Of a stretch of DNA of 13,520 nt, positions 2 through 13,520 are shown one piece after another. The position numbers and the translations under genes are program-made. Source of the stretch: Pseudomonadota bacterium (GTDB lineage Bacteria > Pseudomonadota > Gammaproteobacteria > UBA5335); assembly GCA_021783685.1 (NCBI GenBank), contig JAJXTQ010000013.1, positions 1-13,520 on the forward strand, in the 5' to 3' direction. Below the pieces are notes generated by a model. The model had not been told where the DNA came from. It searched no databases and saw nothing but the letters and a program-made list of their open reading frames with translations. Position 1 is the first letter of the stretch; each line of letters starts with the position of its first letter.

Positions 2-496
2 CCGCTGACGCTGTACGTCCTGGGCGGCTGGCTCAGCGCCAACTATCCGCAGGTGGACTGGCTGAGCCATGACGCGGGCCATCTGCTCGAGATGTGGTTC
101 GGCTGGCGCGCCAACCCGCATTTCGGCCCATTCCACATCGCAAGCTTCGTCCTGATCGGCGGCGGCTTCTGGCTGCTGTCGGCCGCCTGGCCGGTGCTGT
201 ATCGGGCACAGCGTGAAGGCCGGCTCGCCCGCGAGGGCGTGTATGCGCGCATGCGTCACCCGCAGTACGTCGCCTTCCTGCTCGTGCTGACCGGTTTCCT
301 GCTGCAGTGGCCCACGCTGCTCACGCTCGCCAGCTATCCAGTGCTCGTGTGGGCCTATGCCCGCCTGGCGCGTCGTGAGGAAAAAGACTGCTTGAGCCGC
401 TTCGGCGACGACTACGTCCGCTACATGCAGGAAGTGCCGGCCTTCATCCCGCGACGCCGGCGCGGCCCCGCTCCATCCCAAGGAGAAACCCGATGA
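2..496 (+). CDS. ICMT-like membrane methyltransferase (5'-truncated)
   Basis: This is the C-terminal part of an integral-membrane methyltransferase of the isoprenylcysteine carboxyl methyltransferase / phospholipid N-methyltransferase superfamily. The frame is open from base 2, so the true start lies outside the window; an internal GTG at 53 is possible but would remove a hydrophobic segment ([11 protein letters not shown]). Hydrophobic stretches [30 protein letters not shown] and [12 protein letters not shown] look like membrane segments. The family signature is complete: RHPQYVAF, then a paired acidic EE in [18 protein letters not shown], ending VPAFIPR, which in known members builds the S-adenosylmethionine pocket. 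Bacteria have no prenylated Cys substrates of the eukaryotic kind, so the substrate is unknown. The stop overlaps the start of the next gene (ATGA), suggesting coupled translation and a role linked to the metal ATPase. The family call is firm; function is open. Confidence 0.85.
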
Positions 497-2880
497 CGCA
501 CGTCCACAAACCCACTGTGCGCACGCGCACCTGGCCCATCGGCGACATGGTGAGTGCCGGCTGCGCGCGCACGCTGGAGAAGGCCGTGGCCGCGCTGCCT
601 GGAGTCAACGCCACCAGCGCGAATTTCGCTACCGCGACCCTGCAGGTGTCCTACGACCCGGCCCGCCTGTCGGCGGGCGCGGTCGCCACCGCGATCCGCG
701 ACTGCGGCTTCCAATGCAACGCGCCGATGCCCGATGCCGACCCCGCCGCAGGCGCGCACGCCCATGCTGCGCATGCCGGGCACGGACAGGAATTGGCCGC
801 AGAGCGCCCCGCTGACGCCCACGCCGGCCACGGCGATGACGCCACGGATGCCGGGGGCCACGACGCCCATGCGGGCATGAACCACGGCAGCGATCTGCAC
901 GCCGCGGCGCGCGACATGGGCCGCCGCTTCCTGGTCGCCCTCGCCTTCGCGATCCCGGTATTCGTGTGGTCGCCCATGGGCGGGCTGATAGAGCCGCCGC
1001 CGGTGCCGTTCGGACTGCGCGAGAACGTCTGGTTGTTCCTGCTGGCGACCGGCGCCGTGCTGTATCCGGGCTGGCCATTCTTCAGCGCCGCGATCCGGTC
1101 CCTGCGACGGGGTGTGCTGGACATGGCGGTCCTGGTGCTCCTGAGCGTGGGCACAGGTTACGGTTTCAGCATCGCGTCGACGTTCTTCTTCGACGGGCCG
1201 AACTTCTACGAGGCCTCGGCCGTCCTGCTGACCTTCGTCCTGCTTGGCCACTGGCTCGAGATGCGGGCTCGCGCCGGCGCCTCGGACGCCATGAAAGCGC
1301 TGCTGAAGCTGTCCCCACCCCGCGCGGTCGTCCGGCGCGAGGGGCAGGAGCTCGACATTCCCACCGCTGAAGTGCTGGTCGGCGAGACCGTGATCGTGCG
1401 GCCCGGGGCGAAGATCCCGGTCGATGGCATCGTGACGGAAGGCAGCTCTCAGGTCGACGAATCCATGCTGACCGGCGAGTCGATGCCGGTGCGCAAGGAT
1501 CCCGGAGAGTCCGTCGTCGGCGGATCGATCAACAAGAGCGGCGCATTCGCCTACACCGCCACCAAGATCGGCAGCGACACGGCACTGGCGCAGATCATCA
1601 AGCTGGTCCAGACCGCGCAGAACTCCAAGGCGCCCGCGCAGCTGCTCGCCGACCGCGCCTCGCAATGGCTGGTGCTGGCTGCGATCGTGATCGGGCTGCT
1701 GACCTTCGCGGTCTGGTTCTGGTGGCTGGGACAGCCGCTGCTGTTCGCGCTCACGCTGACGATCACCGTCTTCGTCATCGCCTGCCCCGATGCACTCGGT
1801 TTGGCCACGCCGATGGCGATCATGATCGGCACTGGCCTGGGGGCACGACACGGCATCCTCTTCAAGCATGCCGAATCGATTGAGAAGAGCGCACGCCTGG
1901 ACGTGGTGATCTTCGACAAGACCGGCACCCTGACGGTCGGCGCCCCCGAGGTGGTCGACATGGCGGTCGCGCCGGGCTGGACGCAGGAGCGGTTGCTGGC
2001 CGCGGCCGCCGCGGTCGAGGCGCACTCCGAGCACCCGCTGGCGCAGGCCATCCTGAAGCGTGCCGGTCCGGTAGCCGAGCGCGCTACCGCGTTCACCAAC
2101 ATCGATGGCCAGGGCGCTACCGGCGTGGTTGACGGGGTGCAGGTGGTGCTGGGCAACCGGATCCTGATGGTCGAGCACGGCATCGACCTCTCGGTATTGG
2201 AAGCGGAGGCTGCGCGCCTCACCGGTGCCGGTCGCACGGTGATCTATGCCGGGGTGGGTGACCGGCTCGCAGGCTTCTTCGCGATTGCCGACGCGATCCG
2301 GGAGACCTCGCGCGCGGCCATCGACGAATTGCACCGGCGCAACATCAAGGTGGCGATGATCACCGGCGACAACCGCCCCACGGCCGAGCGCGTGGCACAG
2401 GACCTGGGAATCGACATCGTGCTGGCCGACGTGCTGCCGGGCGGCAAGGCCGATGAGGTCATCAAGCTGCAGTCGCAGGGCCTCAAGGTCGGCATGGTGG
2501 GCGACGGCATCAACGACGCACCGGCGCTCACCCAAGCCGACGTTGGGTTCGCGATCGGCGCCGGCACCGACGTCGCCATCGAGAGTGCCGACATCGTGCT
2601 CATGCACAGCGACCCTTATGACGTCGTTCGCGCGACCACCATCGCCCACGCCACTCTGCGCAAGATGCATCAGAATCTGGGCTGGGCCGTGGGCTACAAC
2701 GTGCTGGCCTTTCCGCTGGCGGCCGGTGTGCTCTATCCGTTCGTGCTGTCGCCAGAAATCGCCGCGCTGTCGATGTCGGGCAGTTCGGTGATCGTCGCCC
2801 TCAACGCGTTGCTGCTCAAACGCCTTCCACTGGCGGATGCCGCCACCCCTCGCAGCCCATCTAAGGAGTCCACACCATGA
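493..2880 (+). CDS. P1B-type heavy-metal ATPase with CPD membrane motif
   Basis: This inner-membrane pump uses ATP to export a heavy-metal ion. It is 795 residues long. An N-terminal heavy-metal-associated (HMA) domain (about 10-75) keeps only one of the two usual metal Cys: the GMxCxxC motif reads G-D-M-V-S-A-G-C, with S21 and C24. A His-rich linker (89-136, ten His) follows. About eight membrane segments are visible. The actuator motif TGE is at 327-329, the phosphorylated Asp is D475 in DKTGT, the nucleotide-domain SEHP has H514-P515, and the hinge GDGIND is at 670-675, so catalysis should be intact. The metal-site motif in membrane segment 6 is CPD (C431-P432-D433), not the CPC of Cu+ or Zn pumps. 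The last segments have YN and MSGSS, resembling Cu+ pumps. AGGAGA at 480-485 precedes the ATG, which overlaps the previous stop. The ATPase call is firm; Cu is the likeliest metal but unproven. Confidence 0.93.
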
Positions 2881-3366: not shown

Positions 3367-4752
3367 ATGACAGCGTCTTCCAACCCCACCCTGCAATTCC
3401 TCGGTGCCGCGGGCACCGTGACCGGCTCGCGCTACCTGGTCGAGGCCAACGGTCAGCGCGTGCTCGTGGACTGCGGCCTGTTCCAGGGCTACAAGCAATT
3501 GCGCGAGCGCAACTGGGCTCCGTTTCCCGTCGAGGCGTCATCAATCGACGCGGTGGTCCTGACCCACGCCCACCTGGACCATTCGGGCTACTTGCCCGCA
3601 CTGGTCAAACAAGGGTTCCGCGGCCGGATCCACTGCACCCATGGCAGCGTGGCCCTGTGCGGCCTGCTGCTTCCCGACAGCGGACACCTGCTCGAAGAGG
3701 AGGCCAAGTACGCGGCCCGCAAGGGGTACTCCAAGCACAAGGAACCACGGCCGCTTTATACCGAGGATGACGCCCGCCGCAGCCTGAAGCAGCTCAAGGG
3801 GCATGACTATGGTCGCGACATCGAGGTCGCATCAGGCGTCACGATCCGCTTCCATCCTGCCGGCCACATCCTGGGCGCTGCCCATGTCAGCCTTGACGTC
3901 CAGGGCCAGCGCCTGCACTTCAGTGGCGACCTGGGACGGCAGCAGGAGTCGCTGATGAATCCGCCGACGCCCCTGCCCGCCTGTGACGTCCTGGTCTGCG
4001 AATCCACATATGGCAATCGGGAACACATTCCGATCGACCAAGAAGCCGAGCTGGCACCGATCATCCGCCGCGTTGCCGCCCGCGGGGGCGTGATCGTCAT
4101 TCCCGCCTTTGCCATCGGCCGCGCCCAGGCGCTCATGCTGCATATCGCCCGGCTGCGTGAGCGCAAGGACATCCCTCGCGTGCCGGTCTACCTCAACAGC
4201 CCGATGGCGATCAACGCGACCCGGCACTACCACGACCACCACTCCGAGCACCACGTGTCCGACGAGGACTGCCAGCGGATGTTCGACGTGGCCACCTTCG
4301 TCAACACTGTAGAAGAGTCGAAGGCACTCAACCGCCAGCGCGGGCCGATGATCATCATCTCGGCCAGCGGCATGATCACCGGCGGGCGCGTGCTGCACCA
4401 CATCGAGGCGTTCGGCCCCGATGACCGCAACGCGATCCTGCTCGCGGGCTACCAGGCCGGAGGAACACGCGGTGCCGCGCTGGCGGCAGGCAAGCGCACG
4501 TTGCGCATGTTCGGCCGCGAGGTCCCCATCCGCGCCGAGGTGGTGCAGCTGGAGGGCTTCTCCGGCCACGCCGACGCCGGGGAGCTGCTGGACTGGATGC
4601 GCACCGCGCCGTCCGCGCCGCGCATGGTCTACCTCACCCACGGCGAGCCCGACGCTGCAGACACGCTGCGCGGGCGCGTGCAGCGTGAACTGGGCTGGCG
4701 TGCGCGCGTGCCGGGGCACCTGGAGCAAGTCGGATTGGAGGATGCGAGATGA
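3367..4752 (+). CDS. MBL-fold/beta-CASP RNA-processing hydrolase
   Basis: This is a cytoplasmic zinc-dependent hydrolase of the metallo-beta-lactamase/beta-CASP class (the CPSF73/Ysh1 and TTHA0252 branch), whose known members cut RNA. At 461 residues it has the usual size of the bacterial form. The zinc signature THAHLDH gives H67, H69, D71 and H72; further ligands are H167 (PAGHILG), D188 (SGDLG) and H425 in the C-terminal LTHGEP. The beta-CASP part carries motif A at E212 (ESTYGNR), motif B in SASGMITGGRVLHH and motif C at H401 (GFSGHAD). All expected catalytic positions are present, so the enzyme should be active. AGGAG at 3355-3359 supports the ATG, and an 82-base gap separates it from the gene before. 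Its stop overlaps the start of the phosphorylase gene (ATGA at 4749), an arrangement that would pair RNA cleavage with nucleotide phosphorolysis. Endo- versus 5'-exonuclease action cannot be told from sequence. Confidence 0.93.
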   Translation: MTASSNPTLQFLGAAGTVTGSRYLVEANGQRVLVDCGLFQGYKQLRERNWAPFPVEASSIDAVVLTHAHLDHSGYLPALVKQGFRGRIHCTHGSVALCGLLLPDSGHLLEEEAKYAARKGYSKHKEPRPLYTEDDARRSLKQLKGHDYGRDIEVASGVTIRFHPAGHILGAAHVSLDVQGQRLHFSGDLGRQQESLMNPPTPLPACDVLVCESTYGNREHIPIDQEAELAPIIRRVAARGGVIVIPAFAIGRAQALMLHIARLRERKDIPRVPVYLNSPMAINATRHYHDHHSEHHVSDEDCQRMFDVATFVNTVEESKALNRQRGPMIIISASGMITGGRVLHHIEAFGPDDRNAILLAGYQAGGTRGAALAAGKRTLRMFGREVPIRAEVVQLEGFSGHADAGELLDWMRTAPSAPRMVYLTHGEPDAADTLRGRVQRELGWRARVPGHLEQVGLEDAR

Positions 4753-6266
4753 CCACGCAGGCCCCGGGCCACACCCGCCTGCGCGTCACCCGTGCCGGCA
4801 TCGACACCTACCAGCAGCCGGTGGTCTATATGCACCGCGACTGCGAGGTCTGTCGCTCGGAAGGCTTTGCCGCGATGACGCGCGTCAGGCTGGACGTGGA
4901 CGCCCGCACGCTGGTGGCGACGCTGAACGTGGTCATCGACGATCGGCTCGGCCTGGACGAGGTGGCGTTGTCGGAGGCCGCGTGGACGCTCCTCGATCCC
5001 GCGCCCGACGCCCTCGCCGGCGTCAGGCACGCGGAACCCGCGGCGTCGGCGGGCGCGCTCCGTGCCAAGGTGTTCGGCGCCCGGTTGGACGACGCGCAGT
5101 ACTTCGCCCTGGTGCAGGACGTGATGGAAAGCAGGTTGTCGGACCTGGAGCTTGCAGCTTTCGTCACTGCCAGCGCGGGTGACCGCCTGGACCATGCGGA
5201 GACGACCGCGCTGACGCGAGCCATGATCTCCGTGGGCCAGCGCCTGGACTGGGGCGAAGGGCCGGTGCTGGACAAACACTGCGTAGGTGGCCTGCCGGGC
5301 AATCGCACCACCCCGATCGTGGTGGCCATCGTGGCTGCGCTGGGCTACCGCATCCCGAAGACCTCGTCGCGCGCGATCACGTCGCCCGCGGGCACCGCCG
5401 ACACCATGGAAGTGATGGCGCCGGTGGCGCTCGACCTGGCGGCGATGCGCCGGGTGGTGGAGCGCGAGGGCGGCTGCATCGTGTGGGGTGGCAACGTGCG
5501 CCTGAGCCCGGCCGACGACATCCTGATCCGGGTCCAGCGCCCGCTGGATTTCGACAGCGACGGCCAACTGGTCGCCAGCGTGCTGTCGAAGAAGATAGCC
5601 GCGGGCTCCACCCACGTCCTGATCGACATGCCGGTGGGTCCGACGGCCAAGGTGCGAGGTGAGGCCGCGGCCCACAGCCTCGGCACGCGGCTTGCCCACA
5701 CCGCGGGCGCGCTGGGATTGCAGTTGGGCATCCATCGCTCCGACGGCACCCAGCCGGTGGGTCGGGGAATCGGCCCGGCGCTCGAGGCGCACGACGTGCT
5801 CAAGGTGCTGCGCAACGCGGCCGATGCACCCGCCGACCTTCGCGAACGCGCACTTGCGCTGTCCGCGGCGCTGCTGGACATGGCAGCGGGCAGCAACGCC
5901 GGCACCGGACTGGAGCGCGCGCGCGGCGTGCTGGATTCCGGGGCGGCGCTGGCCAAGTTCCTGGCGATCTGCGAGGCCCAGGGAGGCTTCCGCGAACCGC
6001 CACGGGCGGCGTTCACCGCCGACGTCCCGGCGCCTGCATCGGGCCGCATCGCGGCGATCGACAACCGCAGGCTGGCCAAACTGGCCAAGCTGGCCGGCGC
6101 CCCGACATCCCCCACCGCCGGCCTCGAAACCGGTCTGCGGATCGGCGATACGGTCGAGCGCGGACAGCCCATGATGACCCTGCATGCGGAGTCGCCGGGA
6201 GAACTGGCCTACGCCCTGGAGCACGCCGCGACGCTGCAACCCTTTGTGCTTGGAGAGGTTCCATGA
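4749..6266 (+). CDS. Thymidine phosphorylase family, AMP phosphorylase-like
   Basis: This enzyme splits a nucleoside or nucleotide N-glycosidic bond with phosphate. At 505 residues it is longer than E. coli DeoA (about 440) because of an N-terminal domain of about 85 residues (VVYMHRDCEVCRSEGF and following). That domain is typical of the archaeal AMP phosphorylases and their bacterial relatives labelled putative thymidine phosphorylase. The phosphate-binding signature is DKHCVGGLPGNRTT (K176, H177), followed by KTSSRAITSPAGTADTMEV (from K204). The catalytic pair equivalent to DeoA S186/K190 is S277 and K281 in VASVLSKK. A C-terminal lobe with APASGRIAAID matches the family. If it acts like the archaeal enzyme it converts AMP, CMP or UMP to base plus ribose-1,5-bisphosphate; thymidine or uridine is the alternative. 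GGAGG at 4737-4741 supports the start. It overlaps both neighbours by ATGA. The family is firm; the substrate is inferred. Confidence 0.92.
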   Translation: MTTQAPGHTRLRVTRAGIDTYQQPVVYMHRDCEVCRSEGFAAMTRVRLDVDARTLVATLNVVIDDRLGLDEVALSEAAWTLLDPAPDALAGVRHAEPAASAGALRAKVFGARLDDAQYFALVQDVMESRLSDLELAAFVTASAGDRLDHAETTALTRAMISVGQRLDWGEGPVLDKHCVGGLPGNRTTPIVVAIVAALGYRIPKTSSRAITSPAGTADTMEVMAPVALDLAAMRRVVEREGGCIVWGGNVRLSPADDILIRVQRPLDFDSDGQLVASVLSKKIAAGSTHVLIDMPVGPTAKVRGEAAAHSLGTRLAHTAGALGLQLGIHRSDGTQPVGRGIGPALEAHDVLKVLRNAADAPADLRERALALSAALLDMAAGSNAGTGLERARGVLDSGAALAKFLAICEAQGGFREPPRAAFTADVPAPASGRIAAIDNRRLAKLAKLAGAPTSPTAGLETGLRIGDTVERGQPMMTLHAESPGELAYALEHAATLQPFVLGEVP

Positions 6267-7177
6267 CCCGTGTGCTGATGCCCTTCCCGGCCGATGCAGT
6301 GTTGGCCGGCACCATCAACCAGCCCCTGCAGGCGCGCATTGCACCCGTGGCCTGGCGGCACTTCCCCGATGGCGAGTCGCTGGTCACCCTGGACGACGCA
6401 CTGGACGGCGCCGATGTGGCGATCCTGGCCAGCCTGCGCAACGCCGATGCCATGGCCCTCCCGCTGCGCTTCGCCGCCCGGACCGCGCGCGAGTTCGGGG
6501 CTCGTTCGGTCGGCCTCATCGCACCCTACCTGGGGTATATGCGCCAGGACACCCGCTTCCATCGCGGCGAGGCGGTCAGTACACCGCTGTTTGCGCAATT
6601 CCTCGAAGAGGCTTTCGACTGGCTGGTGACCGTGGACCCGCACCTGCACCGCGTCGAGCGCCTGCAGTCGCTCTACCGCATTCCGACGGTCCACGTATCG
6701 GCGACGCCGGCCGTGGCCCGCTGGATCGCTGAGACCGTCCCCGACGCTGTGCTGATCGGCCCTGACAGCGAGAGCGAGCAGTGGGTAGCGGACATCGCCG
6801 CCCTGTCCGGCATGCCCTACCAGGTGCTGGCCAAGGAGCGGCACGGCGACTACGACGTGCGCGTCAGCCTGCCCGACCCGCAGGCCGTGGCGGGCCGGAC
6901 CCCGGTCCTGATCGACGACATCGTGTCGTCCGGCCACACCATCCTGGAGACCCTCGCACACCTGCGCCGGTTGTCGTTGCCGCCGCCACTGCTGGTCGCC
7001 ATCCATCCGGTGTTCGCCGGCGATGCCTATGCCCGCCTGCAGGAAGCAGGTCTGGCCCGCATCGTCAGTACCGACACCATTGCCCACCCGTCGAACGCGA
7101 TCGCGCTCGGCGCGGACCTCGCTGACGCGGCATCGACCCTGATGTCCGCTTCGGCCGACTCCCCGGAGGACCCATGA
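6263..7177 (+). CDS. prs: Ribose-phosphate pyrophosphokinase (PRPP synthetase), divergent
   Basis: The predicted reaction is ribose-5-phosphate + ATP to PRPP + AMP, in the cytoplasm. The 304-residue protein has the two phosphoribosyltransferase-like halves. Visible motifs are the early FPDGES, the ATP-site stretch PYLGYMRQDTRFHRGE (R94, Q95, D96), the metal-binding VDPHLHR (D125, H127, H129), and the PRPP loop LIDDIVSSGHT (D218-G224). VDPHLHR and RQDTRF differ from the VDLHAxQ and RQDRK forms of the classical housekeeping enzyme and recall archaeal-type synthetases, so this is probably a second, specialised copy. GGAGAGG at 6252-6258 lies just before the ATG, which overlaps the phosphorylase stop (ATGA). 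Its own stop overlaps the phosphoketolase start. Placement beside an AMP phosphorylase-like gene suggests that it links the released ribose phosphate to PRPP. The reverse reaction, making R5P and ATP, is also conceivable. The family call is firm; the physiological direction is inferred. Confidence 0.93.
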   Translation: MTRVLMPFPADAVLAGTINQPLQARIAPVAWRHFPDGESLVTLDDALDGADVAILASLRNADAMALPLRFAARTAREFGARSVGLIAPYLGYMRQDTRFHRGEAVSTPLFAQFLEEAFDWLVTVDPHLHRVERLQSLYRIPTVHVSATPAVARWIAETVPDAVLIGPDSESEQWVADIAALSGMPYQVLAKERHGDYDVRVSLPDPQAVAGRTPVLIDDIVSSGHTILETLAHLRRLSLPPPLLVAIHPVFAGDAYARLQEAGLARIVSTDTIAHPSNAIALGADLADAASTLMSASADSPEDP

Positions 7178-9639
7178 ACCTGCATCTCAACTGCTGCACC
7201 GCCGACCAGCTGTCGGCCGCCGAGCGCCAGCGGACCCTTGAACTCGCCGACGCCCACCGGCGGGCCGATCCCGCGTTTGACCATTGGGCGGCCGGCTACG
7301 GCGTGATCCGACATGACCCGCTCACCCAGCTCCGGGTCCGCCAGATGGTGCACGAGCTGGTGGCCCTGGGCCGCACGCCCGATGCCGGCACCGCCTGGCA
7401 GCGGCTCGCCGCGGCCGATCGCGTCACCAGCGCCGGCATGTGGCTGGTGGCCCACATGACCTACAGCCAGCGGGTCCGCACCGACGGCGCGGCCCTCGAG
7501 GCCGATGACTTCAAGGCCACGCCCGAAGGCCACACTGGCGGGTCCCTCAACATGGTGCCGGCCTACGCCGGCTACCTGCTGATGGACGCCCTGGATGGCG
7601 TCACCCGCGCATGGATGATGGGCCAGGGGCACTGCGTGGCCGCCATCGACGCGCTGAACGTGCTGGTTGGCAACATGACCGCCCGGCACGCCGAACGTTA
7701 CGACCGCTCCGACGCGGGGCTGAGCCGGTTCGTCGGCGACTTCTATGCCTACACCCTCAATCCGGACGGAACACCGGCGTCGCCCCTGGGCTCCCACGTC
7801 AATGCGCACACCGCCGGGGGCGTGATGGAAGGCGGCTATCTCGGCTTTGCCGAACTGCAGTACGTGCATGCACCGCTCAAGGACGAACGCCTGGTGGCGT
7901 TCCTCAGCGACGGTGCGTTCGAGGAACAGCGCGGCAGCGACTGGGCGCCGCGCTGGTGGCGTGCCGAGGACAGCGGGCTGGTCAGCCCGATCATCATCCT
8001 CAACGGGCGGCGCATCGAACAGCGCAGCCAGATCGCCCAGCAGGGCGGCGAGCGGTGGCTGGACCGGCACCTGCGATTGAACGGCTTTGATCCGATCGCG
8101 CTGGACGGGCGCGATCCGGCCAGCATCGCGTGGGGTATCCATGTGATGGAGTCGCGCCTGCAAGCGGGCGCCGCCGTTCCCGATGCCGACGTGCGGCTGC
8201 CCTATGGCATTGCCGAAACCGTGAAGGGCTTCGGATTCCCCGGCGCCGGGACCAACGCCTCGCACAACCTGCCCCTGCCCGGGAATCCGTCGAAGGAGGC
8301 CGAGGCACGCGCGCTCTTCAATCAAGGCGCCGCGGCGCTGTTCGTGGCCGCGTCCGAGCTCGAGGAGGCTGTTGCCGCACTCAACAGCCACGACCTCCAG
8401 CAGCGCGTGCGCGAGCGCGACCATGCGCTGGCCGATCGCCAGGTGGAACCGCCCCGCGTCCCGGCGATCGCCGACCGCGGCGCCGGCGGCGAGAGCTCGC
8501 CGATGACCGCGCTCGACGAGCAGTTCGTCGCCATCGCCGAAGCGAACCCGGGGCTGCGCGTGCGCGTGGGCAATCCTGACGAGCTGCGCAGCAACAAGCT
8601 CGATCGCACCCTGGACGCAATGAAGCACCGGGTGCACGAGCCCGAGCCCGGTGTCGCGGAATCGACCACTGGCGCGGTCATCACCGCGCTTAATGAGGAA
8701 GCCGTGGTATGCGCCGCGCTCGGCAACAAGGGCGGGCTGAACCTGGTGGTCACCTACGAGGCGTTCGCACCGAAGATGCTTGGCGCCGTGCGCCAGGAAT
8801 TGATCTTCGCGCGTCACCAGGCACAGGCGGGGCGACCGCCCGGCTGGCTGGGCGTGCCTCTCGTGCTGACCTCGCACACGTGGGAGAACGCGAAGAACGA
8901 GCAGTCCCATCAGGATCCGACCATGGCCGAGGCGCTCCTGGGCGAAATGGCCGACATATCGCGCGTGGTGTTTCCCCCGGACGCCAACGGCGCCGCCGCG
9001 GCCCTCGCCCACGCCTACGCGCAACGCGGCACGGTCACCACCCTGGTCGTCCCCAAGCGACCGGTGCCGCACGAGCTGACACCGACGCAGGCGCAGGCGC
9101 TGGCCACCCAAGGTGCGCTGTGCCTGGCCGGCAACCCGGCGACAGCGGCGATCCTGCTGGTCGCCACCGGTGCTTACCAATTGCAGGAAGTGCGCCACGC
9201 GCAGGTGCGCCTCGTTGAACGTGGCGTGTCGGCCGCGATCGTCTATCTCGGCGAGCCCGGCCGGTTCCGCACGCCGCGCGATCCGGACGAGGCGCGGTAC
9301 GTGCACTCCGACAGCGAGGTCCATGCACTGTTCCCGGCGGAACGGCCGCGCATATTCGTCACGCATACGCGGCCCGAGCCCTTCCTGGGCGCGCTGCGCC
9401 GGCTCGACACTGGCCCGGCCACGACCGCGGCGCTCGGCTTCGTCAACCGCGGCGGCACGCTGGACGTGCCGGGACTGCTGTTCGCCAACCGCAGCACCTG
9501 GGCGCACGTGGTCGATGCGGCCGCGGGCGTCCTCGGCCAGTCCCGGGGCGGCCTGTTGTCGGAAGCGGAGCTGGCGGCAGTGGATGGTCGGGGCGATCCG
9601 GCCACGATCCTGCGTCCTGCAAGTGGGTCGACGCCATGA
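7174..9639 (+). CDS. Divergent phosphoketolase family protein
   Basis: Classical phosphoketolases use thiamine diphosphate (ThDP) to split xylulose-5-phosphate or fructose-6-phosphate with phosphate, giving acetyl phosphate plus glyceraldehyde-3-phosphate or erythrose-4-phosphate. This protein, 821 residues, has the family's usual length. Conserved blocks include EGHTGGSLNMVP (H120), matching the PGHGG region; NAHTAGGVMEGGYLGF; the cofactor-site stretch SDGAFEEQRGSDW (S245-D246-G247) running to IIILNG; LPYGIAETVKGFGFPGAGTN; and NEQSHQDPTM (H579), matching the THQDPG catalytic block. The classical GDG of the ThDP site reads SDG and PGHGG reads EGHTGG, so this is a distinct branch; relatives have, to my recollection, sometimes been labelled xylulose-5-phosphate 3-epimerase. 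GGAGGA at 7165-7170 precedes the ATG, which overlaps the preceding stop. An acetate kinase gene downstream in the same run fits acetyl phosphate as product. The family is firm; activity in this branch is less so. Confidence 0.88.
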   Translation: MNLHLNCCTADQLSAAERQRTLELADAHRRADPAFDHWAAGYGVIRHDPLTQLRVRQMVHELVALGRTPDAGTAWQRLAAADRVTSAGMWLVAHMTYSQRVRTDGAALEADDFKATPEGHTGGSLNMVPAYAGYLLMDALDGVTRAWMMGQGHCVAAIDALNVLVGNMTARHAERYDRSDAGLSRFVGDFYAYTLNPDGTPASPLGSHVNAHTAGGVMEGGYLGFAELQYVHAPLKDERLVAFLSDGAFEEQRGSDWAPRWWRAEDSGLVSPIIILNGRRIEQRSQIAQQGGERWLDRHLRLNGFDPIALDGRDPASIAWGIHVMESRLQAGAAVPDADVRLPYGIAETVKGFGFPGAGTNASHNLPLPGNPSKEAEARALFNQGAAALFVAASELEEAVAALNSHDLQQRVRERDHALADRQVEPPRVPAIADRGAGGESSPMTALDEQFVAIAEANPGLRVRVGNPDELRSNKLDRTLDAMKHRVHEPEPGVAESTTGAVITALNEEAVVCAALGNKGGLNLVVTYEAFAPKMLGAVRQELIFARHQAQAGRPPGWLGVPLVLTSHTWENAKNEQSHQDPTMAEALLGEMADISRVVFPPDANGAAAALAHAYAQRGTVTTLVVPKRPVPHELTPTQAQALATQGALCLAGNPATAAILLVATGAYQLQEVRHAQVRLVERGVSAAIVYLGEPGRFRTPRDPDEARYVHSDSEVHALFPAERPRIFVTHTRPEPFLGALRRLDTGPATTAALGFVNRGGTLDVPGLLFANRSTWAHVVDAAAGVLGQSRGGLLSEAELAAVDGRGDPATILRPASGSTP

Positions 9640-9664: not shown

Positions 9665-11257
9665 ATGGCGGGCACGGTGCGGCGCGGAGGCCAGATTGCC
9701 TGGGCGGGACTCAAGCTCGGCGTCGCCGTGCTGCGCCTGCGCCGACGTGCACCCGACCTGCTTCCGGCATACGTCAGCACCACACTGGTGGGGTTGGGCA
9801 CCACCTTCGTCAAGCTGGGCCAGGGCTTGAGCCTGCGCTGGGACCTGCTGCCGGCGCCCTATCGCGAGGCGCTGTCGCGATTGCACAGCGATGTGCCCCC
9901 CTTCCCGGCGGAGGAGGCCATGCGTATCGTCGAACAGGCGTTTGGCGCGCCGGTCGGCGAACTTTTCGCCAGCTTCGATGACAAGCCCCTGGCCGCGGCT
10001 TCAGTGGCCCAGATCCATCCAGCGCGCATGCATGATGGTCGCGATGTGGTCGTCAAGATCACCCGCCCCGGGATCCATGCCCAGGTGCAGGCGGATCTGC
10101 TGCTCCTGCGGCGCACGATGCGCGTCGCCCAGTGGATCTGGCCGCCACTGAAACGCCACCGGCCGCTCGAACTGGTGGACGAACTAGGCGCATTCCTGCG
10201 TGACGAGATCGACATGCGTCACGAGGCGCAGAACATGCGGCGCATGGCCAAGGTGCTGGATGCCCTGCCCGGCATCACCCAGCCGCACGTCGTCGAGCCG
10301 TATGCCACCCGCAACGTGCTTGTGCAGGATCGAAGCCACGGGACCCGTCTGGAGGCCGCGTACGGCACAGCGGCCGCTCCCGCACTGGCAAGGGCGCTGC
10401 TCGGTGCCTACGTGCATCAGCTCTTCGGCGCCGGCGTCTTCCATGCCGACCCGCACCCGGGGAATCTGTTCTTCTTTGACGACGGTCGCCTGTGCCTGCA
10501 TGACTTTGGATCGATCGGCGTGCTCGACCCTGCATCCCGGCTCGCGCTCGGCGGCATGGTCGAGGCCATTGCGGCCGACGACGCCGAGGGCGTGCTGGAT
10601 GCAGCGATCGCCATGGGCTTCTTCCCGCCGCAGGTCGACCGCCGCTCGCATGTGCGCGAGATCCACCTGATCCTGGCCGAGATGGCCAGCCGTCCGCTGG
10701 CGCAGTGGTCCATTGCCGAGGCAATCTGGCGCGTGGCACGCATTGGGCAGGGCGCTGGCTTCCGGCTTCCGGCCCACCTGCTGTCCCTGATCCGGACGCT
10801 GTTCCTGGTCGAGAACACGCTGCGGGCGCTGGATCCGGATCTGGACCTGCTGGGGACGCTGTCCGCGCAGGCGGCCGCGATCGCCGACATTGCCGAAGCC
10901 AGCCGCCCCAGCGGCAACAGGCCGCTTGCCATGCGGCTGGCCCGCACTGCGCGCCAACTGCCACAGATCGCCACCGACCTGTTGCGGCAGGCGCAACTGA
11001 GCGACGGACGACCCGCCTTCTCCGTACACCACCATGGCCTGAGTTCCACGCAGGAGGCAATCGCGCGCACGGGCAACCGGCTGGCGTTGGCCCTGGTCAC
11101 CTTGGGCCTGTACGTAAGCGGTGCGCTGTTGAGCCTGCATTCCGACGGCCCGCAAGTGTTCGGTCACATGCCTTTCCTGGCTATGGTGGCTTTCGCTGCT
11201 GCGGGATTGCTCTCACTGCGGCTGGTGATGGCCATCGCCAGATCGGGACACTTGTAA
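9665..11257 (+). CDS. ABC1/UbiB (AarF) family atypical kinase
   Basis: This is a member of the UbiB/ABC1/ADCK atypical kinase-ATPase family, membrane-associated proteins tied to ubiquinone biosynthesis or lipid handling. At 530 residues it is close to E. coli UbiB (about 546). Family marks are present in order: KxGQ (K50-L-G-Q), the Ala-rich loop AAASVAQIH replacing a Gly-rich loop, the lysine in DVVVKITRPG, the acidic DEIDMRHEAQN, the catalytic HADPHPGN (from H260) and the metal-binding DFG (D280). Two C-terminal hydrophobic segments (LALALVTLGLYVSGALLSL and AMVAFAAAGLLSL) should anchor it in the inner membrane. The frame stays open far upstream to 9113, but that part lies inside the phosphoketolase gene, so ATG 9665 is chosen. 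It lies 25 bases after the preceding stop. Whether it is the main UbiB or an accessory paralogue cannot be told; the absence of ubiE/ubiJ neighbours favours a paralogue. Confidence 0.9.
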   Translation: MAGTVRRGGQIAWAGLKLGVAVLRLRRRAPDLLPAYVSTTLVGLGTTFVKLGQGLSLRWDLLPAPYREALSRLHSDVPPFPAEEAMRIVEQAFGAPVGELFASFDDKPLAAASVAQIHPARMHDGRDVVVKITRPGIHAQVQADLLLLRRTMRVAQWIWPPLKRHRPLELVDELGAFLRDEIDMRHEAQNMRRMAKVLDALPGITQPHVVEPYATRNVLVQDRSHGTRLEAAYGTAAAPALARALLGAYVHQLFGAGVFHADPHPGNLFFFDDGRLCLHDFGSIGVLDPASRLALGGMVEAIAADDAEGVLDAAIAMGFFPPQVDRRSHVREIHLILAEMASRPLAQWSIAEAIWRVARIGQGAGFRLPAHLLSLIRTLFLVENTLRALDPDLDLLGTLSAQAAAIADIAEASRPSGNRPLAMRLARTARQLPQIATDLLRQAQLSDGRPAFSVHHHGLSSTQEAIARTGNRLALALVTLGLYVSGALLSLHSDGPQVFGHMPFLAMVAFAAAGLLSLRLVMAIARSGHL

Positions 11258-11320: not shown

Positions 11321-13396
11321 ATGACGCAACACAATCATCATCATCAAGATCATCAGGCGCACGGCGAGCAACCGCCGCATCCCCGCACGGGTGCTGAAGG
11401 TGACGTCCATGCCGGGCACGACAAGCATGCCGGCCACAGCGTGGCGAGCTTCCGCGACAAGTTCTGGCTCACGCTGCTGCTGACCATCCCCACTCTGATC
11501 TGGAGCGGGATGATCCAGCATTGGTTCGACTACACCGCACCACAGTTCCCGGGGTCGGCGTACATCCCGGCGGTGTTCGGCACGATCGTGTACTTCTACG
11601 GCGGCTCGCCGTTCCTCCGCGGCGGATACCACGAGCTGAGAAATCGCCTGCCGGGCATGATGACGCTGATCTCGCTTGCGATCACCGTCGCCTTCCTTTA
11701 CAGCGCGTTGGTCACGCTCGGCGTTGTCGAGGGCTTGGACCTGTGGTGGGAGCTGGCGACGCTGGTGGCGATCATGTTGCTCGGCCACTGGATCGAGATG
11801 CGTTCGATCAACCAGGCACAGGGCGCTCTCAAGGAACTCGCGAAGCTGCTGCCTGATATGGCGGTGCGGTTGGATGAGGCCGGTACCGCGAAGGAAGTCC
11901 CTGTCGCGGAACTGAAGCGCGGCGACCTGCTGCTCATCAGGCCCGGCGCGAGCATTCCCGCCGACGGCGTCGTGAAGGAAGGGACCAGCGCCGTCAACGA
12001 AGCGATGATCACCGGCGAGTCCAAGCCGATGGACAAGTCGACGGGCGACCGGGTGATCGCCGGCACCGTCAACGGACAGGGCTCGTTGCGTGTCGAGGTG
12101 ACGGGAACCGGCGACGAGACCGCGCTCGCGGGTATCATGCGGCTCGTCGAGCAGGCCCAGACGTCGCGCTCGCGCGCCCAGGCCCTGGCGGACCGGGCGG
12201 CGTTCTACCTCACGATCATCGCCATCGTCTCCGCCGCGGTTACCGCCATTGTCTGGCCACTCCTCGGTCGACCGTGGAGCTTCACGATCGAGCGCGTAGT
12301 GACCGTGCTCGTGATCGCCTGTCCCCATGCGCTGGGTTTGGCCATCCCGCTGGTGACCGCCATCTCGACCACGATTGGCGCACGGAACGGCCTGCTCGTG
12401 CGCGATCGACGCGGCCTGGAAGAGGCCCGTTTGCTGAACACGGTCGTGTTCGACAAGACAGGCACGCTCACGCTCGGTTCGCACCGCGTCGTGAAGACCA
12501 CTGCCGCCGATGGACTCACCGACGACGAGGTGCTTCGCGTGGCCGCGTCGGTCCAGCGCGACGCTGAACATCCGATCGCGCAGGCGCTGATGACCAGCGC
12601 CAAGGAACATGGCATCGACGTTCCGATGTCGCAGGACTTCGAGTCCATGCCGGGACGCGGCGTGCGCGCAGTCGTCGAGGAGCGCTCGCTTCACGTTGGC
12701 GGGCCGGGTCTGTTGAGAATGCTCGCGGTCGAACCGCCGGAGACGCTTCGGCGGGCTGCCGAATCAGCGGCAGCCGATGGTCAATCTGCAACCTACCTGG
12801 TGGAAGGCGACCGGGTGCTCGCCGTATTTGCGATCGCGGATGCCATCCGTCCCGAATCGTTCGACGCGGTCAAGCGGCTGCACGACGAAGGACTGGAGGT
12901 TGTCCTGCTGACGGGTGATTCCACGGCGGTCGCAAACGCGGTCGCGAAGGAACTCAACATCGACACCGTCTTCGCCGAGGTATTGCCCGAGGACAAGGTG
13001 GCAAAGATCGAGGAGCTGCAGGCCCAGGGCAAGCGCGTCGCGATGGTGGGTGACGGTGTCAATGACGCTCCGGCGCTGCTCACGTCCGACGTCGGCATCG
13101 CCATCGGCACAGGGACGGACGTCGCGGTCGAGGCCGGCGACGTCGTACTCGTGCGCAGCGACCCGCGCGACGTGCCAGCGATCATCGAATTGAGCAAGGC
13201 CACCTATCGCAAGATGATCCAGAACCTGTGGTGGGCCGCCGGCTACAACATCGTCGCCATCCCTCTCGCCGCTGGCGTTCTCGCCGCATGGGGGATCCTG
13301 CTGCAACCTGCGCTTGGGGCAGTGCTCATGTCGCTGAGCACCGTCGTTGTGGCAATCAATGCGCAGTTGTTGCGCCGGGCGGTGCGGTCCCCATGA
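11321..13396 (+). CDS. copB: CopB-type copper ATPase (P1B-3, CPH motif)
   Basis: This is an inner-membrane P1B-type ATPase of the CopB class, whose known members export copper (or silver). At 691 residues it lacks a Cys-type metal-binding domain and instead starts with a His-rich tail (eleven His within residues 4-39), typical of the class. The membrane metal site is CPH (C334-P335-H336, in IACPHALGLAIP). The late segments carry GYN and MSLSTVVVAINAQLL, the P1B-3 pattern. Catalytic motifs are intact: TGES in the actuator domain, D378 in DKTGT, AEHPIAQA in the nucleotide domain and GDGVND at 577-582. AGGAAGG at 11307-11313, 7 bases before the ATG, fixes the start. A 63-base gap with an inverted repeat precedes it. 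It differs clearly from the CPD ATPase at the other end of the window, so the two are not a recent duplication. Copper specificity rests on family knowledge. Confidence 0.94.
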   Translation: MTQHNHHHQDHQAHGEQPPHPRTGAEGDVHAGHDKHAGHSVASFRDKFWLTLLLTIPTLIWSGMIQHWFDYTAPQFPGSAYIPAVFGTIVYFYGGSPFLRGGYHELRNRLPGMMTLISLAITVAFLYSALVTLGVVEGLDLWWELATLVAIMLLGHWIEMRSINQAQGALKELAKLLPDMAVRLDEAGTAKEVPVAELKRGDLLLIRPGASIPADGVVKEGTSAVNEAMITGESKPMDKSTGDRVIAGTVNGQGSLRVEVTGTGDETALAGIMRLVEQAQTSRSRAQALADRAAFYLTIIAIVSAAVTAIVWPLLGRPWSFTIERVVTVLVIACPHALGLAIPLVTAISTTIGARNGLLVRDRRGLEEARLLNTVVFDKTGTLTLGSHRVVKTTAADGLTDDEVLRVAASVQRDAEHPIAQALMTSAKEHGIDVPMSQDFESMPGRGVRAVVEERSLHVGGPGLLRMLAVEPPETLRRAAESAAADGQSATYLVEGDRVLAVFAIADAIRPESFDAVKRLHDEGLEVVLLTGDSTAVANAVAKELNIDTVFAEVLPEDKVAKIEELQAQGKRVAMVGDGVNDAPALLTSDVGIAIGTGTDVAVEAGDVVLVRSDPRDVPAIIELSKATYRKMIQNLWWAAGYNIVAIPLAAGVLAAWGILLQPALGAVLMSLSTVVVAINAQLLRRAVRSP

Positions 13397-13415: not shown

Positions 13416-13520
13416 GTGACCACGCGCCGGCTTCTTGCACTCAACGTTGGCTCGTCCACCCTCAAGGGCGCGTCCTATCTGTTCAACACTGAGGGACACG
13501 GCGCGCAGTCTCGTCTGCTC
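13416..13520 (+). CDS. ackA: Acetate/propionate family kinase (3'-truncated)
   Basis: Only the first 35 codons are in the window. The N-terminus RRLLALNVGSSTLKGASY matches the LNxGSSSxK signature that opens acetate kinases (ASKHA fold), where it forms the first beta-strand and the phosphate loop. The predicted reaction is acetyl phosphate + ADP to acetate + ATP, in the cytoplasm. The start is a GTG with GGGGA upstream, 19 bases after the CopB stop. Residue K replaces nothing unusual, but G follows where classical enzymes have F (SSLKF), so some divergence is likely. The link with the phosphoketolase gene upstream is functional: that enzyme's product is this enzyme's substrate. Propionate or butyrate kinase are alternatives that need the missing sequence. 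Confidence 0.85.
   Translation, partial: MTTRRLLALNVGSSTLKGASYLFNTEGHGAQSRLL

Follow-up and report, generated by a model that had tools for sequence, protein, structure and literature searches.

The 13,520-nucleotide stretch analyzed here (hereafter, the window) comes from a gammaproteobacterium of the UBA5335 lineage and corresponds to C21:45694-59213 within its 4.44-Mb genome. It encodes four consecutive proteins, referred to below as MBL, AMPP, PRS, and XPK, that are related to beta-CASP ribonucleases, AMP phosphorylases, phosphoribosyl pyrophosphate (PRPP) synthetases, and phosphoketolases, respectively (Table 1). An earlier note on this DNA, made without database searches, had proposed these families, pointed to ATGA overlaps at the MBL/AMPP, AMPP/PRS, and PRS/XPK junctions, and combined the four genes with an acetate kinase gene (ACK) into an RNA-to-acetate pathway that would supply ATP under energy stress. 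The open reading frame (ORF) coordinates and profile scores bear out the families and the overlaps at all three junctions. The gene arrangement is real and linkage of the families beyond chance is confirmed; the RNA-to-acetate interpretation is partly supported. Although the four genes are indeed coupled, the run begins further upstream, at a MerR-family gene, and holds two copper ATPase genes: it consists of 12 codirectional genes, from the MerR-family gene to ACK, with the largest gap at most 82 bp, and possibly yields a single transcript. ACK can start at position 13416 of the window (a GTG codon, equivalent to L004:210) but is not directly adjacent to XPK, from which it is separated by genes for a UbiB-like protein and a copper P-type ATPase, all on the same strand.

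The closest solved structure to MBL is that of the RNase TTHA0252 (278 bits). This relation to a characterized RNase, together with its MBL, Beta-Casp, and RMMBL domains, places the protein among the beta-CASP ribonucleases, and it is likely a metallo-hydrolase of the beta-CASP/RMMBL type that acts as a ribonuclease. AMPP bears the family label "thymidine phosphorylase family" and passes the cut-offs of both TIGR02645 and the "thymidine phosphorylase" model NF003338. Its nearest solved relatives (308 bits) are 4ga5 and 4ga6, deposited as a "putative thymidine phosphorylase"; we take 4ga5 to be the AMP phosphorylase of Thermococcus. The best pyrimidine-nucleoside phosphorylase reached 121 bits. 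AMPP and 4ga5 have in common the motifs GGxPGNxT and PKTSSRAITS, at which the pyrimidine-nucleoside phosphorylases 5oln and 5ep8 differ, and AMPP is predicted to be an enzyme of the AMP/nucleoside monophosphate (NMP) phosphorylase type. Two AMPP homologues of normal length, P0184 (505 aa) and P0241 (503 aa), list PF10011 among their precomputed Pfam domains. An apparent MBL-AMPP fusion (a 963-aa open frame in locus L140) was rejected as an assembly artifact because of an ambiguous codon at the junction.

XPK, whose usual RefSeq name is "xylulose 5-phosphate 3-epimerase," is the sole XFP protein found in its own genome and scores far below the PRK05261 cut-offs (at most 124.4 bits versus 777 or more). 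On plasmids, 15 XPK records showed 47-61% identity across 80% or more of the query, and the other rows among the matches listed showed 21-29%; judged by sequence, XPK represents a sharply separate, distant phosphoketolase clade. In a Foldseek search with the AlphaFold model of XPK (pLDDT 77, with low values in some portions of the active-site region), the first 20 matches were all phosphoketolases (TM about 0.6-0.7), with transketolases coming next. Five active-site His residues align (H64, H97, H142, H320, and H553), and the sixth, H548, corresponds to K574; H64, H142, H320, and H553 are mutated residues named in PDB titles, and H97 and H548 are presumably also phosphoketolase active-site residues. 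Compared with the bacterial phosphoketolase pathway (XFP and acetate kinase), the likeness lies in the phosphoketolase fold and the nearby acetate/propionate kinase, whereas XPK differs in belonging to a distant clade, in the replacement of H548 by Lys, and in its linkage to NMP-phosphorylase-type genes. The phosphoketolase step of the earlier note holds for family and fold but not for a canonical active site, and the names given to PRS and XPK are right at the family level, although both are divergent rather than canonical members.

Linkage of the gene families across genomes

Co-occurrence was assessed in a class sample of 185 evenly drawn genomes (AMPP at E<=1e-60, island-type PRS at E<=1e-40, XPK at E<=1e-60), with the tests counting genomes rather than independent lineages. 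AMPP was found in 43 of these genomes, PRS in 41, and XPK in 6. PRS was present in 40 of the 43 genomes with AMPP versus 1 of the 142 others (P = 8e-36); AMPP occurred without PRS in G058, G123, and G146, and PRS without AMPP in G145. At 41 of 45 AMPP places, PRS was encoded directly downstream on the same strand, with 0-304 bp between the aligned ends; the four exceptions included G045, whose PRS match lies on a different contig, at its edge, and G123, where AMPP lies near a contig start. AMPP was found in three of the six XPK genomes, and a Pfam XFP phosphoketolase of any kind was found in 20 of the 43 genomes with AMPP versus 30 of the 142 without it (odds ratio 3.2, P = 0.0014). MBL is optional: an ORF of the MBL cluster was seen in 10 of 40 stretches drawn from the class sample, of which 36 contain AMPP, covering part of the AMPP places, and 4 contain XPK only. 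The core of the module is AMPP-PRS, and MBL and XPK-ACK are recurrent additions.

Gene neighborhoods were surveyed in 87 loci, the best 80 of 504 relatives plus 7 plasmid loci, a set in which close relatives are overrepresented. The plasmid regions were picked by choice (7 of 15 full-length XPK records and 2 AMPP records, with two more later). An XPK ORF was present in 85 loci; the plasmid loci L012 and L013, which had been fetched for AMPP and have no XPK in their annotation, were excluded. The 85 loci fell into 35 groups at 80% identity, each counted by one representative, 10 of which have a flank shorter than 7 kb. The partners seen in these groups were MBL (22), AMPP (19), PRS (19), ACK (17), and the UbiB-like gene (11). 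At least one of MBL, AMPP, PRS, and ACK was found in 28 groups, with 20 arrangements distinguished by gene order or by the partners seen, and same-strand neighbors within 150 bp of XPK were PRS in 13 groups, MBL in 11, and ACK in 11. Such repeated reassembly argues for function. The association of these gene families is not a matter of chance and is wider than could have been known from the window: the five families recur together elsewhere, and the lack of co-occurrence that would have told against the salvage proposal was not what was found. A literature search, judged mostly at the level of search results, returned no publication that joins these genes into one pathway. One variant of the operon, seen in L161 and five other class-sample loci, has a DUF1614 protein (L161:8334-8993) near AMPP-PRS, often alongside an SDR-looking protein.

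The full 13,520 bp are 99.96-99.97% identical in three Stenotrophomonas loci among the best 80 relatives, and 10.5-10.7 kb are conserved at 91.7-94.3% identity in eight more loci from Luteimonas, Pseudoxanthomonas, Dokdonella, and a member of the Lysobacteraceae. In the class sample, a genome of the same genus had no match to AMPP, PRS, or XPK at the thresholds used, and plasmid-borne relatives are present. The near-identical copies across genera, the patchy presence, and the plasmid relatives therefore mark the window as part of an accessory island.

The AMPP-linked PRS subclass and ribose-1,5-bisphosphate

AMP phosphorylase-type enzymes would release ribose-1,5-bisphosphate (R15P), and its further conversion was the gap that the earlier note had left in its pathway. 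This gap is real. R15P isomerase (TIGR00511) was over the cut-off in none of the 43 AMPP genomes; weaker matches (97-211 bits) in 28 of them are likely of the MtnA type. PhnN was over the cut-off in 5 of the 43. According to an excerpt of PMC9700705, PhnN of Escherichia coli converts R15P to PRPP. PhnN was found in two of the three AMPP genomes that lack PRS and in 3 of the 40 that have it (hypergeometric P = 0.03), which hints weakly at mutual replacement of the two enzymes. In the genome that carries the window, both PhnN and R15P isomerase were rejected as the missing step, being under their cut-offs.

PRS is a PRPP synthetase by both family score and catalytic motifs. Its closest solved structure is 1u9y (121 bits), which we take to be the class III (archaeal) PRPP synthetase of Methanocaldococcus jannaschii, and it scores 75 bits against 1dkr, presumably the Bacillus subtilis enzyme. 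The genome encodes a second, housekeeping-type Prs on C26 and no further Prs. A signature of the island-type proteins was derived from 87 sequences chosen by similarity to the PRS of the window, which thinning at 70% identity reduced to 50. GPDxESxQW is found in 48 of these 50 sequences, PHLHR (DPHLHR in the clade signature) in 43, and KxRxGDxxV also in 43; the housekeeping enzyme has SPDVGGVVRA, DLHADQ, and KRRPRANV at these sites. The catalytic motif YxRQD is retained in all 50, and KxR is kept as well. The altered stretches, if we read PRPP synthetase structures correctly, border the substrate-binding loops. PRS resembles class III PRPP synthetases in its nearest solved relative and in its YxRQD and KxR motifs but differs from them by DPHLHR, GPDxESxQW, and KxRxGD and by its near-constant AMPP neighbor.

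On account of its near-obligate pairing with AMPP and its distinct signature, PRS is the strongest candidate for catalyzing the R15P step. The AMPP-linked subclass could be a new R15P-consuming enzyme that would close the gap, a possibility that we regard as doubtful. Such an enzyme might, by analogy to the reverse PRPP synthetase reaction, transfer the 1-phosphate of R15P to AMP (R15P + AMP -> ribose-5-phosphate [R5P] + ADP), or might make PRPP from R15P. The archaeal pentose bisphosphate pathway, or NMP shunt (AMP phosphorylase, R15P isomerase, and RuBisCO), shares with the module an AMP phosphorylase-type first enzyme; the module differs in lacking an R15P isomerase over the cut-off in the AMPP genomes and instead has the divergent PRS as a constant neighbor and, in some cases, a phosphoketolase and acetate kinase. 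If PRS does consume R15P, the outcome would be a bacterial, isomerase-free pentose bisphosphate route, ending at XPK and acetate kinase in islands such as this one. AMPP-type proteins are annotated as thymidine phosphorylases in many proteobacteria, and most of the 43 AMPP genomes lack the known enzymes that use R15P; with a near-obligate partner that has its own signature, the fate of R15P becomes a two-enzyme question. Many new bacterial classes of PRPP synthetase are described in the preprint PMC13252144; its main text, when searched, did not contain the word "phosphorylase." Of the results presented here, the subclass of PRS linked to AMPP offers the most useful new lead.

Low oxygen, copper, and the role of the module

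Members of the same families have been captured in expression studies of Bradyrhizobium diazoefficiens. They form two mutually unlinked predicted operons, bll3117-3116-3115 (AMPP-PRS-MBL) and bll2518-2517 (phosphoketolase-acetate/propionate kinase). The excerpts of PMC9104804 place putative FixK2 boxes at positions -74 and -89. There, bll3117, bll3115, bll2518, and bll2517 are among the 37 genes with decreased expression in both fixK2 mutants at 0.5% O2 (6.6-, 30.6-, 10.0-, and 10.2-fold lower, respectively, in the fixK2 deletion strain), and bll3116 is mentioned solely as an operon member. Parts of PMC6515984 give microoxic/oxic log2 fold changes in protein of 2.1 for AMPP, 4.4 for PRS, 2.9 for MBL, and 4.3 for the phosphoketolase, and microoxic transcript increases of 5.1-, 7.7-, 15.4-, and 8.2-fold, respectively. 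In the portions of these two papers that were at hand, the gene set is not joined into a pathway. The FixK2-dependent, low-oxygen expression favors the energy-stress idea, which the company of copper pumps weakens for the copy in the window.

Among 77 regions from relatives (53 groups), 7 regions, in 7 groups, have an FNR-type box (exact TTGAYN4RTCAA) immediately before AMPP, versus about 0.5 (0.56) expected; two of the seven are in Lysobacter loci (L046 and L047). In Lysobacter arvi (L042), such boxes precede XPK and a universal stress protein gene. The 35 representative XPK loci contain 28 boxes versus 1.55 expected, held by 12 loci.

The best single explanation of these observations, which we prefer tentatively and with somewhat less than even confidence, is an accessory module for the catabolism of nucleotide ribose when respiration or energy supply fails, as at low oxygen and perhaps, in this island, under copper stress. 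MBL would degrade RNA to nucleotides, and AMPP would convert NMP and phosphate to the base and R15P. The AMPP-linked PRS would then bring R15P into the R5P/PRPP pool, from which housekeeping isomerase and epimerase would produce xylulose-5-phosphate. XPK would cleave the latter to acetyl phosphate and glyceraldehyde-3-phosphate, and acetate kinase would use acetyl phosphate to make ATP. For this organism, each reaction, the direction of PRS, and acetate as the product are inferred, as is RNA as the source, to which only the neighboring ribonuclease-type protein points. If true, this explanation would help to account for the same metabolic genes in copper islands and in a low-oxygen regulon and would show how cells might gain ATP from their own nucleotides.

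Several observations weigh against this energy-salvage reading. AMPP is under the cut-off of the AMP_phos model TIGR03327 (437.7 versus 535 bits), and in the genome of the window the best matches to R15P isomerase (200.1 bits) and PhnN (63.3 bits) are below the cut-offs of 314.1 and 156, respectively. K574 is invariant in XPK alignments of 14 and 19 sequences, and because the clade has Lys in place of H548, the XPK substrate is only putative. The rarity of XPK relative to AMPP (6 versus 43 of the 185 genomes) makes the phosphoketolase end an optional addition to the AMPP-PRS core, and 7 of the 35 XPK groups have none of MBL, AMPP, PRS, and ACK, whereas matches to a copper-ATPase query lie nearby in 16. 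The Bradyrhizobium phosphoketolase is possibly a canonical one. In PMC6515984, as excerpted, the 62-protein core does not include AMPP, PRS, MBL, and the phosphoketolase, which belong to an expanded list; under an older definition, they are labeled as other than direct FixK2 targets, and they show no induction in bacteroids. No exact FNR-type box lies inside the window, and one located upstream of it in L002 is not tied to a gene start. The likeness to FixK2/FNR low-oxygen regulons consists in the FixK2 dependence of the same families in B. diazoefficiens, and the difference in this absence and in the company of copper genes. The 40 class-sample stretches held only 10 boxes versus 3.95 expected, and FNR boxes were rejected as a module-specific trait (4 of 86 module gene heads versus 9 of 403 others, P = 0.18).

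The copper-pump neighbors, together with the copper inhibition of Prs in Staphylococcus aureus, make a role in copper tolerance a live rival, even if we consider it rather unlikely. The island would then supply spare, less copper-sensitive enzymes for poisoned steps (PRPP synthesis and lower glycolysis/pentose phosphate metabolism), with R15P as a supplementary route to PRPP and acetate catabolism secondary. The 12-gene run does unite the MerR-family gene, DUF2933, and two copper ATPases with all the metabolic genes; a copper-ATPase query match was found near XPK in 16 of the 35 groups, some of these perhaps being other P-type ATPases, and a type II (archaeal-type) GAPDH is added in 3. In S. 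aureus, as excerpts of PMC10249872 have it, Prs is inhibited by Cu(I) in vitro, copper-treated cells have lower Prs activity and less PRPP, and prs dose changes copper sensitivity; inhibition of GapDH by copper is cited in the same source. However, the families are FixK2 dependent at low oxygen in Bradyrhizobium, only 5 of the 36 class-sample stretches with AMPP (some stretches being cut by contig ends) contained a copper-ATPase match, the MerR protein is over no metal-specific NCBIfam cut-off, and copper resistance of the island enzymes is purely putative. The energy and copper readings may merge, since copper, like anoxia, may impair respiration.

The remaining alternatives differ in how much of the module they keep together. 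AMPP and PRS could serve PRPP/AMP homeostasis as a base-exchange or PRPP-recovery pair (NMP -> R15P -> PRPP), with XPK-ACK as a fermentation module of its own, connected to them by regulation alone. This is consistent with the genome counts of AMPP and XPK, with the sighting of XPK-ACK without AMPP in the same stretch in Dechloromonas (L074) and Thauera (L076 and L083), and with the excess of PhnN, an R15P-to-PRPP enzyme in E. coli, in genomes lacking PRS; the close same-strand spacing of XPK and PRS in 13 of the 35 groups and the enrichment of phosphoketolases of any type with AMPP make it improbable. Conventional nucleoside catabolism, in which AMPP is a nucleoside (thymidine) phosphorylase and ordinary phosphopentomutase converts ribose-1-phosphate to R5P, would leave no gap and agrees with the NCBI family name and with a score over the NF003338 cut-off but under that of AMP_phos. 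The motifs shared with 4ga5, which read otherwise in solved pyrimidine-nucleoside phosphorylases, and the near-obligate pairing with PRS leave this only a slim chance. Finally, the genes could be unrelated cargo collected in a mobile metal island, as the nearly identical Stenotrophomonas copies, the same-genus genome without the three genes, and the plasmid copies of relatives would allow. The co-occurrence statistics largely exclude this option, and the conserved pairing, the partners recurring in many arrangements, and the coregulation of unlinked genes in the Bradyrhizobium excerpts likewise make it highly improbable.

Other genes of the run

Table 1. Genes of the 12-gene run, with positions in the window and on contig C21
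Gene or product	Window position	Start on C21	Strand	Basis or remark
MerR-family gene		44699		First of the 12-gene run
DUF2933 gene		45208		Member of the 12-gene run
ICMT-like methyltransferase		45524		Named via tblastn match of RefSeq-named homologue, near-identical L014
Copper-type P1B ATPase, N-terminal HMA domain	493..2880	46186	+	TIGR01511 595.1 bits (cut-off 397); HMA 42.4
Small protein, 135 aa	2877..3284	48570	+	Between copper ATPase and MBL
MBL	3367..4752	49060	+	Pfam Beta-Casp 122 bits, RMMBL 67 bits, Lactamase_B
AMPP	4749..6266	50442	+	TIGR02645 552.6 bits (cut-off 434.6)
PRS	6263..7177	51956	+	NF005537 362.5 bits (cut-off 322)
XPK	7174..9639	52867	+	Pfam XFP 136.2 (cut-off 22), XFP_N 45.5 (cut-off 23.7)
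UbiB/ABC1-like atypical kinase	about 9665..11257	about 55358	+	Pfam ABC1 200 bits; start codon 9665 or 9644
Second copper-type P1B ATPase	11321..13396	57014	+	TIGR01525 593.2 (cut-off 346.3); TIGR01511 584.8 (cut-off 397)
Acetate/propionate kinase (ACK)	13416..13520, runs on to C21:60212	59109	+	Pfam Acetate_kinase 212.6 bits

ACK passes the Pfam Acetate_kinase cut-off but misses that of TIGR00016 (213.5 versus 293.4 bits), and the UbiB-like protein is under the TIGR01982 cut-off (285.6 versus 487.6). The small protein encoded upstream of MBL had no NCBIfam or Pfam matches; it is retained in many close relatives (as seen with tblastn) and, judged by eye, is possibly exported. The usual metal-site motif of copper-type ATPases is CPC; the first and second ATPases of the window read CPD and CPH, respectively, and may move different metal forms. 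Type II GAPDH genes are found in the XPK-bearing loci L005:17831-18874, L007:5149-6204, L023, L050, L052, and others; the L005 protein scores 312.6 bits with TIGR01546 (cut-off 232.9). Right after ACK, a 470-aa ORF without a Pfam or NCBIfam match is located on the opposite strand (L004:1353-2762); the ORF cluster that holds its L014 counterpart recurs in 17 of the 87 loci surveyed.

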